A DNA stretch of 64,000 bases from Microcoleus sp. FACHB-831 (lineage in GTDB: Bacteria > Cyanobacteriota > Cyanobacteriia > Cyanobacteriales > FACHB-T130): assembly GCF_014695585.1 (NCBI RefSeq), contig NZ_JACJON010000057.1:62001-126000 (forward strand), given 5' to 3'. The position numbers were made by a program, and so were the translations under genes. The notes under the pieces were generated by a model. That model saw nothing but the letters and a program-made list of their open reading frames with translations, had not been told where the DNA came from and did no database searches. Positions 44,072 to 52,529 of the stretch are shown one piece after another (the first letter of the stretch is position 1; the number at the start of each line of letters is the position of its first letter).

Positions 44072-45394
44072 TTAGACAATGTTATCCCGACGGTCAATAA
44101 TGGTGACATTAGGGGCAGGGTTAGAAATTTTGTAATCGCTGTCAACAGTTGCGGTTGGTACTTCCCGATTGTCGCTATCTACAGTTTTTGTAGTATCAGG
44201 TGCATCGTAAATCCCCCATTCTTGAATACCGCGATCGCTCAGAACAGCTTCGGCACGAGCAATTTCTTCATCCTTGCCATCTACCATCACCAAATACTTG
44301 CCGCGAGACACCAACTCGTTATAAACTTTGGCTCGTTCTTCAGGAATTCCCAAACCAATAAATCCACCAACCAAACTACCAGCTAAAGCGCCAAGTGCGC
44401 CGCCAGTGAGAGTAGTAGCAAGCGCGGTGGCTGTAGCACCAGCGATCGCAAGAGGGCCAACTCCAGGAATCGCCAACGCACCCAAACCAACTAATAAGCC
44501 AGTTAAAGTTCCCAAAGCACCGCCAGCAGCAGCGCCAGTCATAGCACCTTCATCAATCTTGCTGTCGTCAACGCGATCGCCCACGTGAACGCCAGCTATT
44601 TCATCCTCTTTGTCTGTATGGCGTGCGAGGATAGAAACTTTGTGCATCGGAAAATCAGAATTTTTCAGCGCGTGGAGTGCATCTTCCGTCTCTTGACGGT
44701 TAGAAAATACACCAACAGCTAGCTTACTTTTGCCTAAACTCGCGTCAGGGGTAGCAGCGGTCAGTGGGTAAGGAACGGTATCCATTCCCATCCCCAAGCC
44801 ACTAACACCAGTAGGGTAAGCGTTTGCAAACCCAACAGGGAGATCGAATGTTGGAGCATCATACACGCCCCAATCCTCAATTCCGCGCTGACGCAGCATT
44901 GGTTCGGCACGATTAATTTCTTCTTCAGTGCCATCTAGCATGAGCAAATAATCGCCATTATGCAGGCGATCGCTGTAGATTTTGGCTAAGTCTTCAGAAA
45001 CCCCCAAACTCAGCAATGCCGCCAGCATACCGCCCGTTGCTGCGCCAATTGCTCCACCCACCAAAGTTTCGCCCAGAAGCGCTGCCAAAACGCCCCCTGC
45101 CAATATGGGGCCGAATCCAAAGATTGTCAACAGACTCAGACCGCCTATTAAGCCAAATAAGCCACCTGTAGCAGCGCCTGCAACTGCACCTGCTTTAACG
45201 CCATCTGTAAGTCCATCGCCAGATTCGTCTTGAACATCAACCCCAGCGATCGCATCTCGACTTTCCGCATGCTGTGCGACTATAGAAACTTTTTGCATGG
45301 GAAAGCCCGAATTCTTCAGTTCGTTGAGGGCTTCTTCCGTCGCTGCACGACTGGTGAAGACGCCAAAGGCGCGTTTGTCTTGCGCTAAAGCCAT
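44072..45394 (-). CDS. Tandem-duplicated stress-type glycine-zipper protein
   Basis: A 440-residue protein starting at ATG 45394, which has a clear GGGAGG upstream; the longer open frame adds 28 doubtful residues. It contains two copies of a unit at about 1-170 and 200-385. Each has an N-terminal alpha/beta part like the general stress protein 17M/YflT domain (RAFGVFTSRAATEEALNELK, FPMQKVSIVAQ), a Gly/Ala-rich hydrophobic helical hairpin (AGAATGGLFGLIGGL; AGGALGTLTGLLVGLG) and a C-terminal part ending GIEDWGVYDAP or GIQEWGIYDAP. The tail has TIIDRRDNIV. The Gly-rich parts could insert in membranes. It is related to the gene at 46145. Confidence 0.85.
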   Translation of the reverse strand: MALAQDKRAFGVFTSRAATEEALNELKNSGFPMQKVSIVAQHAESRDAIAGVDVQDESGDGLTDGVKAGAVAGAATGGLFGLIGGLSLLTIFGFGPILAGGVLAALLGETLVGGAIGAATGGMLAALLSLGVSEDLAKIYSDRLHNGDYLLMLDGTEEEINRAEPMLRQRGIEDWGVYDAPTFDLPVGFANAYPTGVSGLGMGMDTVPYPLTAATPDASLGKSKLAVGVFSNRQETEDALHALKNSDFPMHKVSILARHTDKEDEIAGVHVGDRVDDSKIDEGAMTGAAAGGALGTLTGLLVGLGALAIPGVGPLAIAGATATALATTLTGGALGALAGSLVGGFIGLGIPEERAKVYNELVSRGKYLVMVDGKDEEIARAEAVLSDRGIQEWGIYDAPDTTKTVDSDNREVPTATVDSDYKISNPAPNVTIIDRRDNIV

Positions 45395-45495
45395 GTTTTT
45401 ATCCTCCCGTTTAAAGATAAATAACGTTGCAAAAATATTTAAGTTTTTTGTAATTATTGCTTTTCCTACTTTATTCACGTTTTTATCATGGAAAT

Positions 45496-46144: not shown

Positions 46145-47374
46145 TTATACAGTCTCGTCTCGCCGATCGATGATTACGACTTCGGGGTGTTTGCTAACAA
46201 CTTGGTAATCGGGGTGGGTGGTATCGACGGCTGGGTGAGAGTTGCGATCGCCCTCGTTGAAGTTGCGTGTAGTATTATCCACACCTTCGGCTGCATCATA
46301 AATACTAGCCTCTTGAATACCTCGCTGGTTCGGAACATTACCGCCAGTAAATGCAGTTGTTGCAGCAGTTGGGGTAGAAACAGCAGACTGGGAATGAATA
46401 GCAGTTGGATCGAAAATTTCCCACTCTTGAAGACCGCTATTGCCTAGAATTGGTACGGCGCGATGCACTTCATCTTCTGTACCATTGACTATAACTACAT
46501 ACTCTCCCCCCATCACGCGGTCGTTGTAGAACCGCGCACGCTCATCTGGCAATCCCATTCTCATAGCGTCAAAGCGATCGCGCATTTCGACGCCTGCAAA
46601 TCGCTCCGGCTGTTCAAAATTCTGCGCCACCAGAGTAACTTGGTTCAGGGGGAAGCTAGCATTTCTGAGATCTTTGACAGCTATTTCTGCATCGCGACGG
46701 TGGGGAAAGTAGCCCACAGCGTATTTGTTTCTAGCAATACCAGCGCTAGCAACTCCAGTCGTAGGAGCGGTAGCCGTTGCATAATTGGTACGAGCGGTAT
46801 CAACGCCCGGTGTATCATAGATACCCCACTCTTGAATGCCGCCACGGTGTAGAATAGCTTCTGCTGCCGCAATTTCCCTAGTGCTGCCATCTATTATTAC
46901 TAGATATTCACCCCGGCTAACTCTTTCGTTATAAACTCTGGCTCTTTCTTCAGGAATTCCCAAACCAACCAATGCGCCCAGCAACCCTCCGGTGACTGCA
47001 CCTATAGCAGTACCAGAAAGAGTCGTTGCAATAGTTGTTGCCGTAGCTCCTGCGAGCATAACAGGGCCAATTCCCGGAATTGCTAATATACCCAAACCAA
47101 CTAATAAGCCAGTTAGACCTCCCAAAGCGCCGCCAGTAATCGCGCCTTTTGTAGCACCCAAGTCAGCTTGATTGCCCTCGCGATCGCCGTGTGAGTCTCT
47201 AGGACGTTCGCTCACATCAGCACCAGCTATTTCCTCATTTCTATCGGCATCTCGTGCAACGACAGAAACTTTATCCATCGGAAAACCCGAATCTCTCAAC
47301 TCGTGCAGCGCATCTTCAGCATGTCGCTTAGTACGAAATACACCTACAGCACGTTTATCTCGCTCTAAAGTCAT
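46145..47374 (-). CDS. Stress-type glycine-zipper protein, paralogue of 44072-45394
   Basis: A 409-residue protein starting at ATG 47374, with GGAG upstream. The first unit (about 1-165) is complete: RAVGVFRTKRHAEDALHELR, FPMDKVSVVARD, a Gly/Ala hairpin (GALGGLTGLLVGLGILAIPG) and GIQEWGIYDTPG. The second unit (about 190-300) keeps the alpha/beta part (YAVGYFPHRRDAEIAVKDLR) and its end (GLQEWEIFDPT) but lacks the Gly-rich hairpin. A third fragment GIQEASIYDA and the tail VVIIDRRDETV follow. Unit 1 is very like unit 2 of the neighbour, which points to duplication then deletion. Role is likely stress-related (inference). Confidence 0.85.
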   Translation of the reverse strand: MTLERDKRAVGVFRTKRHAEDALHELRDSGFPMDKVSVVARDADRNEEIAGADVSERPRDSHGDREGNQADLGATKGAITGGALGGLTGLLVGLGILAIPGIGPVMLAGATATTIATTLSGTAIGAVTGGLLGALVGLGIPEERARVYNERVSRGEYLVIIDGSTREIAAAEAILHRGGIQEWGIYDTPGVDTARTNYATATAPTTGVASAGIARNKYAVGYFPHRRDAEIAVKDLRNASFPLNQVTLVAQNFEQPERFAGVEMRDRFDAMRMGLPDERARFYNDRVMGGEYVVIVNGTEDEVHRAVPILGNSGLQEWEIFDPTAIHSQSAVSTPTAATTAFTGGNVPNQRGIQEASIYDAAEGVDNTTRNFNEGDRNSHPAVDTTHPDYQVVSKHPEVVIIDRRDETV

Positions 47375-47469
47375 TTTTTTAATCTCCACTGGACACAGAT
47401 AGCTAAAATACAGAATTTGTGGGGAATTTATCTTCTAAATACTTTTTTAGGCTTTTCCTCGGCAGTTTC

Positions 47470-47488: not shown

Positions 47489-47547
47489 CGACCGATCTAT
47501 CAACAGAAAGGCAAAAGATATTCTTGTGTTAAAGCGGCGATCGCGAC

Positions 47548-49266
47548 TTGCCAGTTCGGTTCTACGCCCCCAGTATCTTGACTGATACCGATAATCTCTT
47601 AATAGGAAGGCAGTTTAGGTACTGCCATTTGTCCGTCGCTGTGGAAGGGGTCGATAAAGTGGTGCAAAAGTGGTTATTACCAACGCTGAGTGAAGTGTTA
47701 GCCCGGAGTACACCAACTGGGCAAGATCATTTTTTGTCTGATGCAGGGCAGGCAAAAGTAATAGAGAACAGCCACCGACACGCTAGCAGCCGGATGGCAA
47801 AAGAGCGAGTAAAAGCGCACAGGGAGTGGTGTGGAGCGATCGCATCCCTAGAACATCTGCTCCTAGAAATCCTTGAGGGGGGACAAGATAACCCTACAAA
47901 TTCAATTGATGCTATCTTACCCGAGCAATTACAAATTACAGGATTAGTTTTAGCTGGCCCCGTGCCAGTCTTGAGCCATCCAGATTTGATGAGGAGCTTT
48001 CAAACTGGGGTTTTCACCGCAGAACAATTTAATCCTCTAGCATTGATGCCATATCATTTGCTGCCTGCACAATCTGGGCAGACAAATAATGTTCCGCAAT
48101 GCCCTTACTCGCTGCCTTTGCTACCAGAAGATCCGCTAGGAGCAGAGCAGTTTTGTATAGTTTTTACCCCGGCGTTTAGTTTAGTAATGGTGCTGGGAGA
48201 AAACGCAAACGGCAATCCAGCTTTTCAATTTTCCTTTGACCCTGAAGTAGTGCAGCAAGCATGGGCGTCGCTAAAGTATCGGTTGTTACTTACAAGCCGC
48301 GATCGCAGCTGTCACTTAGATGCCCTAGTGGAGAGGTTTCCTCCCATAGCCCCAGATTACCGAACCGTCATGCAGTTTAGTCGCCTGCTGCTGAAACATT
48401 TACCCGAAGATGTAGCGCCAGTAGAGGAGCAAAGGAGCAAAGGAGCAGAAGAACAGAGGGCGATCTCGCAAGAAGCTGCGATCGCTCCAAAATCCACCGT
48501 TTCTACTCCCGCTTGTTCAACCCCAACCCAAAATCTAAAATCGCAAGATGTAGAATTGCTGCAAGCCTTTGCCCACGAAGTACGCACGCCGCTTACCACC
48601 ATTCGCACCCTTACCAGGCTGTTGCTAAAGCGCCGCGACCTCGGAGCTGATATCATCAAGCGTCTGGAGATTATCGACCACGAGTGTACCGAGCAAATTA
48701 ACCGCATGGAGTTAATTTTCCGCGCCGTCGAATTAGAAACTTCAGAAGTTAAAGATTGGCAGGGTGCCCTAACCACAACCTCTCTTGCCCAAGTATTGCA
48801 AAACAGCATTCCCCACTGGCAAAAACAAGCCAGTCGCCGCAACTTAACCCTTGACGTTGTACTACCCCAAAAGCTACCCGCTGTGGTGAGCAATCCCGCC
48901 ATGTTAGATCAGGTGCTGACTGGATTGATGGAAAAATTCACCCGCAACCTACCAGCAGGCGGTCACATTCAGGTTCAGGTAATACCAGCCGGAGACCAGC
49001 TTAAACTGCAACTTTGTTGTCAATCGCATCCTGAAGAAGAGGATAGCGGACAAGCAAAAGTCGCAGACTCAAGCGGGAAGTCACTTGGTCAGATGCTAGT
49101 ATTCCAGCCGGAAACTGGAAACATTAGCCTCAATCTCAACGCTACCAAGAATTTGTTCCAAGCTTTGGGAGGGAAATTAATAGTGCGCCAGCGCCCTAAA
49201 CAAGGTGAAGTGCTGACAATTTTCTTGCCTCTTGAATTACAAAACCGCAGTATATGGAATGCGTGA
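47548..49266 (+). CDS. Histidine kinase with intact His box but degenerate ATPase domain
   Basis: A 572-residue protein from TTG 47548; the start is uncertain. Residues 1-270 form a sensory region with RFYAPSILTDTDNLLIGRQF and GLVLAGPVPVLSHPDL. A linker with EEQRSKGAEEQR low complexity (about 292-304) leads to a standard dimerisation box with His343 in FAHEVRTPLTTIRTL. The C-terminal domain still aligns with HATPase (MLDQVLTGLMEKF to FQALGGKLIVRQ), but the N-box Asn, the DxGxG box and the GxGLGL box are all missing. It probably cannot bind ATP in the usual way. The convergent kinase at 49395 has the opposite defect. Confidence 0.85.
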   Translation: MPVRFYAPSILTDTDNLLIGRQFRYCHLSVAVEGVDKVVQKWLLPTLSEVLARSTPTGQDHFLSDAGQAKVIENSHRHASSRMAKERVKAHREWCGAIASLEHLLLEILEGGQDNPTNSIDAILPEQLQITGLVLAGPVPVLSHPDLMRSFQTGVFTAEQFNPLALMPYHLLPAQSGQTNNVPQCPYSLPLLPEDPLGAEQFCIVFTPAFSLVMVLGENANGNPAFQFSFDPEVVQQAWASLKYRLLLTSRDRSCHLDALVERFPPIAPDYRTVMQFSRLLLKHLPEDVAPVEEQRSKGAEEQRAISQEAAIAPKSTVSTPACSTPTQNLKSQDVELLQAFAHEVRTPLTTIRTLTRLLLKRRDLGADIIKRLEIIDHECTEQINRMELIFRAVELETSEVKDWQGALTTTSLAQVLQNSIPHWQKQASRRNLTLDVVLPQKLPAVVSNPAMLDQVLTGLMEKFTRNLPAGGHIQVQVIPAGDQLKLQLCCQSHPEEEDSGQAKVADSSGKSLGQMLVFQPETGNISLNLNATKNLFQALGGKLIVRQRPKQGEVLTIFLPLELQNRSIWNA

Positions 49267-49394
49267 AGTACCCGCTGGCTTGGGCGCATAGCTGGTGAAA
49301 CGGTAAATTTGCCTAATAAGTTGCTCTGGCAACCATTTCTTTTATCCTTTGCCTGTCTAAACCCTTATATTCGGTAAGCAAAACTAAACCCAGA

Positions 49395-50942
49395 TTAGGG
49401 CGCTTTTTGCTTTGTTTGGTCAACTGGTAGCAGCACTTTAAAGGTGGAACCTTCACCCAGTCGGCTGGTGACAGAAACTGAGCCGCCGCAGCGCAGGAGC
49501 AGTTGCTGCACTATGGTTAAGCCTAAACCCGCACCGGGAACATCTTCGCTGCTGGCTGGGCGTCCTCGATAAAAGCGATCGAATATTTTGGGAATTTCCC
49601 CCGCAGCAATGCCCATACCAGTGTCGCGAAATTCGATCTGCACGTATTCGCCTTGTTGCTTCGAGCGTACCCAAACCTGGCCGCCTGGGGGTGTAAATTT
49701 AATACTGTTATGCAGTAGATTGATAACAATTTGTCGCAGCCAAGGCTCTGGGAAGGAAACATATGGAAGCGCAGTGCTGACGGTATATCCTAGCTGCACG
49801 CCTTTTTCGCCAGCGAGGGGCTGATAAGTGCTGACGACAGCGGGTACTATGTCGATGAGATGCACGGGCTGCACTTGTGCTGGTTGGGGAGTGCGCTCTA
49901 GCTGCATCAATTCCAGCAATCCAGTAATTAGGGAACCTTGGCGATCGCACTCTCTATTCAACATTTGCATATAGCGTTGCCGCTGGGCGGGTTTGAGCTG
50001 CGCTGAACCCAGCAGGGTGAGTGCTGTTTTCATGTTCGTTAAGGGCGTTCGCAGTTCTGTCGCTACATGGCTGAGAAACTCGTCTTTAAGGTGCAGGTCG
50101 TTCAGCAGGCTTTCGTTTTTTTGTGCAAGGACTTCTGTCGAGCGATCGCCCTTCTGTATTTTGACGGCATTACGTCTAATTTCATCCTGTCGTTGTATTT
50201 GTTTTGCCAACAATTGGGTAAGCATAACAACAGAGCAATCGCGATCGCTAGGCTCACCTATTCCTGTTTTATCCCTTAGACTACCCGCTTGAGTTATCGC
50301 CCCTTTTATACCCTCCAAAACCCCATGCACTGCAAAACGCTCAAACGTGCAAAGAGCCATCAACGATGGTTTTTTCTTGGGGATTACCTCATCTTCTAAT
50401 AGCAGTCCAGCAGGCGATGCTTCTACTTCAAAGGGTGCAGCTACATCTGAAAAAACTGCTGGTTTTCGTCCTGTTTGACTAACTCTAATGCTCATATCAT
50501 CGCTGTCAAAGCAAGATTTCTGCGCCCCCATTGCCCCACCAGGCTCCTTTTTAGAACCGGATGTTCGCCGCGCCAAAATCAAGCCGCAAAACTTGTCGGA
50601 TACAGCTAGAACAAAATACTCGCGATCTTTTTCGCTTCCACCCTCTAGCTGGACGTGGACAATTTCCGACTCTTCATCAGACAGCAACCCTTCCCTTTGT
50701 TGCTGAGTGGCATTGCACAGATAAATCGTGTGCCGGGAAACAGCCAGATCCTGCAAGCGCTCAATTTCTGCTTGCCAGACCTGACCGGGCGGTAGCTTTA
50801 CCCATAGTTCGCTGGCGATCTTTTGCTCGATCAGGACATCGATGGTTGCCCCAAGCAACGATTTGAGGCTGGCGGGACTAACTGAAAGGCGCTGGGGCGC
50901 TGGCTGTGTAGCCAGCGCCAGCTGGTAGAGGGAGACAGGCAT
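49395..50942 (-). CDS. Histidine kinase with DICT-like sensor and Thr in place of the His
   Basis: A 515-residue protein. Residues about 15-170 resemble a DICT-type sensory domain (SPASLKSLLGATIDVLIEQK, then HTIYLCNAT, VQLEGGSEKDREYFVLAVSD). A coiled linker at about 250-285 precedes the dimerisation box, which reads FLSHVATELRTPLTNMK: the phospho-accepting His before ELRTP is Thr295, and a His sits three residues earlier (292). The ATPase domain is intact: INLLHNSIKFTPPGG, DTGMGIA, FDRFYRG and GAGLGLTIV. It converges on the kinase at 47548, with 128 bp between them. Soluble; no membrane span. Confidence 0.9.
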   Translation of the reverse strand: MPVSLYQLALATQPAPQRLSVSPASLKSLLGATIDVLIEQKIASELWVKLPPGQVWQAEIERLQDLAVSRHTIYLCNATQQQREGLLSDEESEIVHVQLEGGSEKDREYFVLAVSDKFCGLILARRTSGSKKEPGGAMGAQKSCFDSDDMSIRVSQTGRKPAVFSDVAAPFEVEASPAGLLLEDEVIPKKKPSLMALCTFERFAVHGVLEGIKGAITQAGSLRDKTGIGEPSDRDCSVVMLTQLLAKQIQRQDEIRRNAVKIQKGDRSTEVLAQKNESLLNDLHLKDEFLSHVATELRTPLTNMKTALTLLGSAQLKPAQRQRYMQMLNRECDRQGSLITGLLELMQLERTPQPAQVQPVHLIDIVPAVVSTYQPLAGEKGVQLGYTVSTALPYVSFPEPWLRQIVINLLHNSIKFTPPGGQVWVRSKQQGEYVQIEFRDTGMGIAAGEIPKIFDRFYRGRPASSEDVPGAGLGLTIVQQLLLRCGGSVSVTSRLGEGSTFKVLLPVDQTKQKAP

Positions 50943-51050: not shown

Positions 51051-52529
51051 CTACAATCTTTCAGCCAGAGCATTTCGCGCTTGTTCTCGGTCGTCGAAGT
51101 GTATTTTTTCCGTACCTAGTATTTGGTAGTCTTCATGGCCTTTTCCGGCGATGAGGACGCCATCTCCGGGTTGTGCTTGTAGAATTGCCAGCCGAATGGC
51201 AGCAGCGCGATCGCCGTTGACTACAGGCTGTACGTCAGATGGTATCCCAGCCAAGATATCTTGCAAAATCCGTTCTGGGTTTTCCGTGCGCGGGTTATCT
51301 GAGGTGACGACTGCAATATCTGCTAGTTCGGCGGCAATTTTACCCATTATGGGGCGCTTGGTGCGATCGCGATCGCCTCCACACCCAAACACGCAAATCA
51401 TTTTCCCTTTAATAAACGGTCGTGCTGCTTTGAGCAAATTCTCCAGACTATCCGGCGTATGTGCATAATCGACAATTACGCTAATATTCTGTTCTGGACT
51501 AATCTGCACCCTCTCCATCCGTCCCGGCACTCCGGTAAATTCTGGTAAACTATCCGCCATTGCAGACAAATCTAGACCCAGATGCAAACCAGCGCCCACA
51601 GCAGCCAGCAAGTTAGCTAAATTAAACTGCCCCACCAGAGGCGAACTGAAAGCCACATCACCCTTGGGCGTATGCAACATCCCGCTTACGCCAGTTGAGC
51701 TGTAGTCTAGGTCGGACATCCACAAAGCTGCTGTTGAGTCACTGACGCTGTAACTCCAAACCCCGTCTGGGTTGATTGTCTCAATCAACCGCTTGCCATA
51801 AGCGTCATCCAAGTTAATTACCGCACGACCTTGCAAATAATCTGGGCTAAATAGCAGCGCCTTTGCCGCGAAGTAATCTTCCATATCGCGGTGGTAGTCT
51901 AGATGATCCTGAGTCAGGTTGGTAAAAACTGCCACATCAAAAGGACAGCCCATTACCCTACCCTGCGCTAAGGCGTGGGAACTAACTTCCATCACGCCCA
52001 TCTTGCACCCAGCGGCTACGGCTTGAGCCAGTTGTTCTTGCAGTTCGGGGGCAAAAGGTGTTGTGTGGGCTGCTGTTTGTACAAATCCTTGCCAACGCGC
52101 ATAGAGGGTGCCAAAAAGAGCTGTACGCAGATCCGCTTTGTTTAGAAAAAATTCGATTAAATGAGTGGTTGTGGTTTTGCCATTTGTGCCCGTGACTCCC
52201 ACCATTTTCATTTGTTTTGCTGGGTAGCCGTAGAAAGCAGCGGCGACAGAGGCACAAGCTTGAGTCATGTCTGTTGCAGCAATAACGCGGGGGTCTGCAC
52301 CAGATTTCTGTGCAGCTTGGGGCGAAACGAGGGCGGCTACAGCACCAGCGGCGATCGCGCTTTCCCAAAAATCTCCCCCATCTACCCGCGTTCCCGGCAT
52401 CCCGATAAATAAATCTCCTGCTTGACAAGCATGAGAATTAGTGCTTATACCTTTGACTTCAGCATCAAGAGCCGCATGGCTGGGGTGTTGCAAATTAGGT
52501 ACGTTTGCCAATAAATCGCGCAATTTCAT
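51051..52529 (-). CDS. murE: UDP-MurNAc-Ala-Glu--meso-diaminopimelate ligase
   Basis: A 492-residue Mur ligase. The N-terminal domain has GISTNSHACQAGDLFIGMPG. The ATP loop GTNGKTT is at residues 114-120 in GVTGTNGKTTTTHL. The central domain includes VMEVSSHALAQGRV and NLTQDHLDYHRDMEDY with the carbamylated-Lys region. The C-terminal DNPR motif (TSDNPRTENPE) indicates specificity for meso-diaminopimelate, the usual cross-linking residue in cyanobacterial peptidoglycan. It acts in the cytosol. No other mur gene is adjacent. Confidence 0.97.
   Translation of the reverse strand: MKLRDLLANVPNLQHPSHAALDAEVKGISTNSHACQAGDLFIGMPGTRVDGGDFWESAIAAGAVAALVSPQAAQKSGADPRVIAATDMTQACASVAAAFYGYPAKQMKMVGVTGTNGKTTTTHLIEFFLNKADLRTALFGTLYARWQGFVQTAAHTTPFAPELQEQLAQAVAAGCKMGVMEVSSHALAQGRVMGCPFDVAVFTNLTQDHLDYHRDMEDYFAAKALLFSPDYLQGRAVINLDDAYGKRLIETINPDGVWSYSVSDSTAALWMSDLDYSSTGVSGMLHTPKGDVAFSSPLVGQFNLANLLAAVGAGLHLGLDLSAMADSLPEFTGVPGRMERVQISPEQNISVIVDYAHTPDSLENLLKAARPFIKGKMICVFGCGGDRDRTKRPIMGKIAAELADIAVVTSDNPRTENPERILQDILAGIPSDVQPVVNGDRAAAIRLAILQAQPGDGVLIAGKGHEDYQILGTEKIHFDDREQARNALAERL

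Follow-up and report, generated by a model that had tools for sequence, protein, structure and literature searches.

The window analyzed here, 64,000 nucleotides of Microcoleus sp. FACHB-831 (contig NZ_JACJON010000057.1, positions 62,001 to 126,000), carries two neighboring genes for histidine kinase-like proteins, which are termed A (plus strand) and B (minus strand) in the following. The genes are convergent, and the open reading frames leave 128 bp between their stop codons, as a first-pass annotation of this DNA had described. The same annotation had proposed that the two proteins act as one split kinase, in which A keeps the phospho-acceptor His and B keeps the ATPase. This complementarity is borne out across both protein families, and the role of A appears to reach beyond its pairing with B. 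The features of the locus and of a related gene string are compiled in Table 1.

Table 1. Features of the A/B locus (window positions) and of the A-containing gene string found in the order of genome G213.
Feature	Position	Strand	Basis
Conserved promoter region of A (read earlier as 'FYAP' N-terminus)	47532..47600	+	
GTTCGGTTCTAC, with the Rre1 motif GTNCGGK at 47554-47560	47554..47565	+	
Protein A: DICT-like sensor, DHp with phospho-acceptor His, degenerate GHKL domain, ~534 aa	47662..49266	+	
DICT-like region of A with approximate limits, long-frame residues ~130-250	47935..48297	+	Profile-profile alignment and predicted secondary structure
CAC codon, conserved phospho-acceptor His of A (343 of the long frame)	48574..48576	+	
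Degenerate ATPase domain of A: predicted GHKL fold, DxGxG and GxGLG gone, lid of low confidence	48889..49236	+	
Protein B: DICT sensor, His-less DHp, intact HATPase_c, 515 aa	49395..50942	-	
Intact G2 box of B (GAGLGL)	49518..49535	-	
ACA codon, Thr295, at the lost phospho-acceptor position of B	50058..50060	-	
DICT domain of B	50565..50933	-	
Mur ligase gene (murE-like), recurrent neighbor past B; order A> B< mur<	51051..52529	-	
String A - sensorless Hik2-type kinase - LuxR-type regulator	L278 4479-7742; also L318-L324, L326	one strand	

The long open frame of A spans 47548-49266 on the plus strand, and its true start is the GTG at 47662 rather than the TTG at 47548, since homologs of A contain in-frame stops 5' of this GTG and a GTG stands at the aligned start codon in 94 of 123 of them. 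With this start, the phospho-acceptor, which had been numbered His343 from the TTG, becomes approximately His305. Owing to the same in-frame stops, the stretch from which an 'FYAP' protein similarity of A to B had been read was recognized as promoter DNA, and the similarity was discarded as an artifact. The DICT part of that claim holds directly for B, and for A as a more distant kinship. B matches the Pfam domains DICT (PF10069; 97.9 bits versus a cut-off of 23.8), HATPase_c (94 bits), and HisKA (38.5 bits), with Thr at the phospho-acceptor position of its H-box ATELRTP. The HisKA match of A, with His in the H-box AHEVRTP, exceeds the Pfam cut-off (28.2 versus 26.9 bits), and its HATPase_c match reaches 12.8 bits, under the cut-off of 26.4. 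A Pfam search of A for DICT returned no match at E-values up to 1. In a profile-profile alignment, residues 182-218 of A were aligned with the end of the DICT domain of B (99.2% probability for the whole alignment), and the predicted order of strands and helices agrees between the two regions when compared by eye, which points to a weaker, true link. The degenerate ATPase domain of A is predicted as a GHKL fold with a Z of ~15, its lid region being of low confidence. Homolog matches that cover the kinase part alone are 52-70% identical to the A of the window.

Residue counts were obtained from aligned sets of 133 A and 63 B sequences. Entries with the same protein or the same C-terminal 200 residues had been collapsed, and frames truncated by a locus end had been dropped; these sets do not comprise all loci, and near-copies remain in them. 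The phospho-acceptor His is kept in every A (133/133), GxGLG in none (0/133), and DxGxG in a single one (1/133), with the phosphatase motif HExxT largely retained (Glu 131/133, Thr 133/133). In B, the acceptor position is occupied by Gln (42), Arg (11), Glu (4), Leu (4), Thr (1), and only once by His (1 of 63), and the second N-box Asn, the D and first G of DxGxG, both F-box Phe, and two of the three G2 glycines are present in all 63 proteins. The Thr of HExxT is kept in 42 and lost in 21 of them. Measured against an orthodox HisKA kinase, A has the His and lacks G1 and G2, and B lacks the His and has the ATP-binding boxes, so that the residue alignment yields the complementary loss on two proteins expected of a split kinase. 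For comparison, 25 other kinases from the collected loci were inspected, and all 23 with a recognizable H-box have the His. As A and B each form one clade with full support in small trees, each defect looks old. The complementary defects are real and family-wide, beyond chance, and not the product of random decay. That both genes are decaying pseudokinases, as the loss of standard motifs in each might suggest, is contradicted by conservation and was rejected as highly improbable: the frames are intact and strongly conserved, the losses are specific and opposite, and the degenerate domain of A has near-invariant residues of its own (P521 in 132/133, T523 and G524 in 133/133).

The sole B with an acceptor His (CHELRTP), at 1504-2928 of locus L114 in genome G204, has three relatives under the same genus code with Gln and represents either a reversion or a sequencing slip. 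The A proteins of L193 and L194 (family f36) keep the His and have lost the next Glu (HG and HS), a change expected to impair phosphatase chemistry. The second DHp helix carries an E-C-x-x-Q-like motif in both families (A 379-383, C in 131/133 and Q in 133/133; B 331-335, C in 60/63 and Q in 62/63), a possible interface or thiol site. Within its own genome, A may or may not be the sole His-bearing, ATPase-lacking kinase; 19 of the 150 HisKA domains listed have no HATPase within 900 bp among the matches listed, both lists being limited to 150 rows.

In a sample of 292 genomes drawn evenly across the phylum, A is present as a single copy in 137, which belong to the class of the window (137 of 139; G130 and G274 are the only misses there among the misses listed, which are ordered by kinship), and no genome outside this class gave a match. 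B was detected in 36 of the 292 genomes with a score gap of at least 334 versus at most 204 bits, in 35 of 60 nearer relatives (three of the 25 without it are less than 90% complete), and in 26 of 34 named genomes. The first-pass annotation had suggested to look for co-occurrence across cyanobacteria, and the outcome is two-sided: all 36 genomes with B carry A and no B turned up on its own, but B is absent from 101 of the 137 genomes with A, so that the independent distribution named there as refuting the proposal is half borne out. Because A is nearly universal, the constant company of B is weak evidence of a partnership, and co-occurrence was rejected as proof of it. On a tree of A, the presence of B requires at least 13 changes, at least 8 of them forced by starred branches (shuffled mean 43); the tree was built quickly and has long branches, L069 and L098 (2 of 133 rows) carry no B label, and several rows without B are metagenome assemblies in which B may be missing data. 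No A without the His was found in the 133-row alignment, although most A-bearing genomes have no B. The dependence is one-sided: B is dispensable, and A must also work without it, given that A is common without B, that the presence of B changed often, and that the His of A never changed.

Gene order adds to this picture. A and B lie within 5 kb of each other in 13 of the 36 genomes, always tail-to-tail; these genomes come from nine families, the class-level outgroup G081 among them. Another 10 genomes have the two genes on one contig at a greater distance, and the remaining 13 have them on separate contigs. A Mur ligase gene, 73-80% identical to that of the window, is found downstream of A in 12 of 46 named loci, seven of them with B in between and five, all from Nostocales (L092, L095, L096, L101, L110), without B. 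Of the two-protein signaling unit that had been proposed, the family-wide complementarity and the tail-to-tail arrangement therefore stand, whereas its obligate character is contradicted by the many genomes with A alone, the repeated changes on the tree, and the B-less Mur loci. These arrangements also bear on the explanation that B does not act on A at all, and instead forms heterodimers with other complete kinases or serves as a kinase-dead, ATP-dependent phosphatase, the adjacency being inherited gene order. Indeed, the order A-B-mur is old, and loci that have lost B still have A next to the mur gene, so adjacency may be passive; B lies more than 5 kb from A or on another contig in 23 of 36 genomes, and the genome of the window offers many possible partners with its at least 150 HisKA domains. 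However, B never occurs without A (though A is near-universal), and it retains the key ATP-site residues but has lost the phosphatase Thr in 21 of 63 proteins; we regard this explanation as quite unlikely.

The conserved element upstream of A in the window contains GTTCGGT, a form of the Rre1 motif GTNCGGK, which is given in PMC13421787 and PMC13232611, both crediting Kobayashi 2017. GTTCGGTTNTAC has a single occurrence in the window, with 0.01 expected. Excluding three of the 133 A rows and one of the 63 B rows with too little upstream DNA, GTNCGGK was found upstream of A in 109 of 130 loci as compared to 200 of 2600 random windows (7.7%), on the opposite strand in 3 of 130, after shuffling in a mean of 11.9 (maximum 21), and in 2 of 62 B promoters, so that A carries the Rre1 motif and B does not. 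GTTCGGTTNTAC stands upstream of A in 96 of 130 loci; across 2.18 Mb, it was located at 106 distinct A promoters and only 2 other places, one of which precedes the broken A frame in L109 by ~100 bp. The promoter loci are related by descent, and these counts overstate independence. In most of the cyanobacteria sampled, the marine group excepted, the element looks like a conserved Rre1 site and promoter.

Besides this motif, a second clue to a tie of A with Hik2-Rre1 comes from the outlying order of G213, in which A, a sensorless kinase, and a REC-LuxR regulator follow one another on one strand in eight of nine genomes. The string kinase has normal His and ATP motifs in the seven of the eight that were read, gave no sensor domain match, and clusters with Hik2-like kinases in two trees (support 100/99.9 and 100/99), of which the first included five and the second four of the eight string kinases, with four also in the Hik2 profile. 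The class I Hik2 loci L334-L338 and L341 were considered for the second tree, and L335, L336, and L337 passed its H-box filter. A relationship of the string kinase to B was rejected, if only at borderline significance (approximately unbiased (AU) test, p 0.047). In the five G213-order genomes searched with the Hik2 profile, four of which had contributed to it, the string kinase scored 286-322 bits and the next kinase at most 130, so that the sole strong Hik2-like match adjoins A. Among 13 further genomes, G206 reached 320 bits (itself in the profile), nine had one match of 145-194 bits, G172 and G319 remained at a generic-kinase level (best 125), and G361 is treated below. The kinase region of A is 30% identical to the Hik2 profile and 17% to B over a longer stretch. 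The string regulator is 51% identical to L253, its nearest among six regulators found in G206, the other five of which we take by eye to be of OmpR type. Class II Hik2 is described as having no sensor domain (PMC5904244, PMC13421787), and Rre1, the Ycf29 homolog, as the LuxR/NarL-type partner of Hik2 (PMC2677595, PMC13421787). A is a candidate for the sensor-bearing, ATP-dead partner of the kinase just downstream.

Our favored explanation, to which we assign a probability of about 0.4, is that A serves as a sensor, acceptor, and phosphatase subunit and receives its phosphate in trans from separate kinases, namely Hik2 and, in genomes that have it, B; Rre1 would be the output, with a feedback on A. 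A would be unable to use ATP, and a separate catalytic protein would phosphorylate its His, probably inside a DHp heterodimer. Ancestrally and in most species, this protein would be Hik2 and the output the LuxR-type regulator Rre1, which in its phosphorylated form would raise the transcription of A and thereby close the loop. B would be a specialized DICT kinase that has given up its own His and provides a second, optional input by phosphorylating A. Phosphorylation in trans is the simplest account since A keeps the acceptor and phosphatase motifs and both B and Hik2 have the ATP site; B is proposed as a kinase of A from complementarity and gene neighborhood, Hik2 from the gene string of one order and the promoter motif. 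The retention of HExxT in A and the frequent loss of its Thr in B parallel the division of labor in CheA3/CheA4. What the sequences show directly are the conserved complementary residues, the distribution of A and B, the gene string of one order, and the conserved Rre1 motif, and the heterodimers, both phosphotransfers, the phosphatase activity, and the feedback are what we infer. A bolder version is doubtful, in which A is an unrecognized regulatory subunit of Hik2-Rre1, a near-universal pseudokinase lending its sensor, His, and phosphatase under Rre1 control. Sensorless class II Hik2 would then not be truncated but have A as its sensor, and B would be obligately trans with A as its substrate. 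A 2026 review calls the direction of redox regulation of the Hik2-Rre1 switch unresolved (PMC13421787).

A number of observations weigh against the favored explanation, apart from the frequent absence of B. The second N-box Asn is still present in 85 of 133 A proteins (Lys in the A of the window), and some residual nucleotide binding by A is conceivable. The gene string was found in one order only, and even there G361 forms an exception: its A stands outside such a string, and its Hik2-like kinase (a match of 279 aa and 201 bits) lies on a different contig. Sister groupings of A with Hik2 and of A with B are neither established nor rejected (AU p 0.35 and 0.31). The nearest relative of the string regulator among the regulators compared is L248 (59% identity) of G130, a genome without A, and the search in family f39 for a regulator lost together with A found none, as G130 keeps a LuxR-type one. 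GTNCGGK alone is common (35 in the window versus 34 expected), it is absent from all 12 marine-type (f41) A loci read and from the G213 locus too, and in outlying lineages it lies anywhere from 26 to 211 bp before the start, so that some matches there may be chance. The names Hik2 and Rre1 are used here on the strength of domain layout, published descriptions, and, for the Hik2-like kinases, the H-box of Hik2, rather than of a reference sequence. Finally, Thermostichus was found in one survey to have no homolog of Hik2 while sharing one kinase-regulator pair (PMC9953108).

The chief rival holds that A is a RetS-like pseudokinase that acts by binding Hik2 (or Rre1), either to inhibit it or to remove its phosphate, the His of A never being phosphorylated normally and B only modulating A; as an Rre1 target, A would then exert negative feedback, and it may belong to the Hik34 family (slr1285). 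A keeps HExxT, its sequence and structure matches include RetS and the RetS-GacS complex (with DivL among the structure matches), and an Rre1 motif lies in its promoter. Hik34 is likewise soluble, stress-induced, and tied to Rre1: expression of heat-shock genes, htpG and groESL1 among them, is reported to go up when Hik34 is lost and down when it is overexpressed (PMC3264485), hik34 is induced by heat and other stresses (PMC6789579), which suits an Rre1 target, and Rre1 is described in the literature as working with both Hik2 and Hik34. On the other hand, recombinant Hik34 autophosphorylates according to a review (PMC3264485), which A should not do and which speaks against identity. Gene neighborhoods in four family f8 genomes gave no clue to a Hik34 identity, and a Hik34-like gene in Halothece, for which 69% identity is given (PMC9374696), speaks neither for nor against A. 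Moreover, the ordinary kinases ZraS and CpxA match the structure of A equally well, and a His that never carried phosphate would hardly be expected to be invariant (133/133). We regard a RetS-like inhibitor as possible but unlikely.

RetS/GacS and DivL are HisKA-fold proteins that signal with altered kinase chemistry through another kinase, and A, the structure matches of which include them, would resemble them in this respect. Unlike them, A is near-universal in its class, and we know of no case in either system of a His-less kinase beside an ATP-dead one. For the split kinase CheA3/CheA4 of Rhodobacter sphaeroides, trans-phosphorylation has been shown (PMC3591291), whereas for A and B it is predicted. 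In both pairs, one protein offers the phospho-accepting His and the phosphatase and the other the ATP site, and neither should work alone. CheA3/CheA4 are of CheA type and miss whole domains, whereas A and B keep the HisKA-HATPase layout, lose only residues, and have DICT-type sensors. In a database count, 1556 of 42417 HisKA proteins had no detectable HATPase (PMC3591291). The string of the G213 order resembles class II Hik2 with Rre1 in placing a sensorless Hik2-type kinase and a LuxR-type regulator directly downstream of A; A itself differs from class II Hik2 in having no ATP motifs and is unmentioned in the accessible parts of PMC5904244 and PMC13421787.

In the literature searched (most subscription papers lie outside it), neither an ATP-dead kinase universal in cyanobacteria nor a DICT kinase without the His was found to have been described before. 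The novelty lies in two full-length DICT-type kinases that complement each other at the level of residues, in the depth of this pattern, in the near-universal presence of A, and in the ties of A to Hik2-Rre1. If the favored explanation is correct, A and B would represent a HisKA-type split kinase made by residue loss instead of domain loss and conserved over deep evolutionary time. It would also supply a component so far missing from the redox and heat-shock switch Hik2-Rre1, the cyanobacterial system in whose lineage the plastid CSK-Ycf29 pair stands.

A hidden His-less kinase was also sought in four small marine-type genomes with 25 HATPase matches, of which 14 have a readable H-box, all with His; SasA, NblS, PhoR, and Hik2 are names of kinases in small marine-type genomes. 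Seven of the other 11 matches were submitted to Pfam and comprise gyrase B (L235, L237, L239), HSP90 (L243, L246), and weakly MASE1-like proteins (L233, L234); G156 and G202 may each hold one odd kinase among the remaining four. The proteins of L233 and L234 are HATPase proteins of 503-515 aa with a weak MASE1 match, no HisKA match, and no readable DHp. In the marine-type loci L287-L291 and L317, A stands directly before psaD on the same strand (6/6), within a one-strand string of an mrp/apbC-like gene, rodA, A, and psaD in 6/6 and with trpE next in 5/6; names were assigned by Pfam/NCBIfam on L287 and by similarity for the other loci. A pentapeptide-repeat gene lies just before A in five of the nine loci of the G213 order. 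In the window itself, two adjacent genes with YflT 'heat induced stress protein' domains (44072-45478 and 46145-47389) are located directly upstream of A, and a functional link to a heat-stress circuit is possible.

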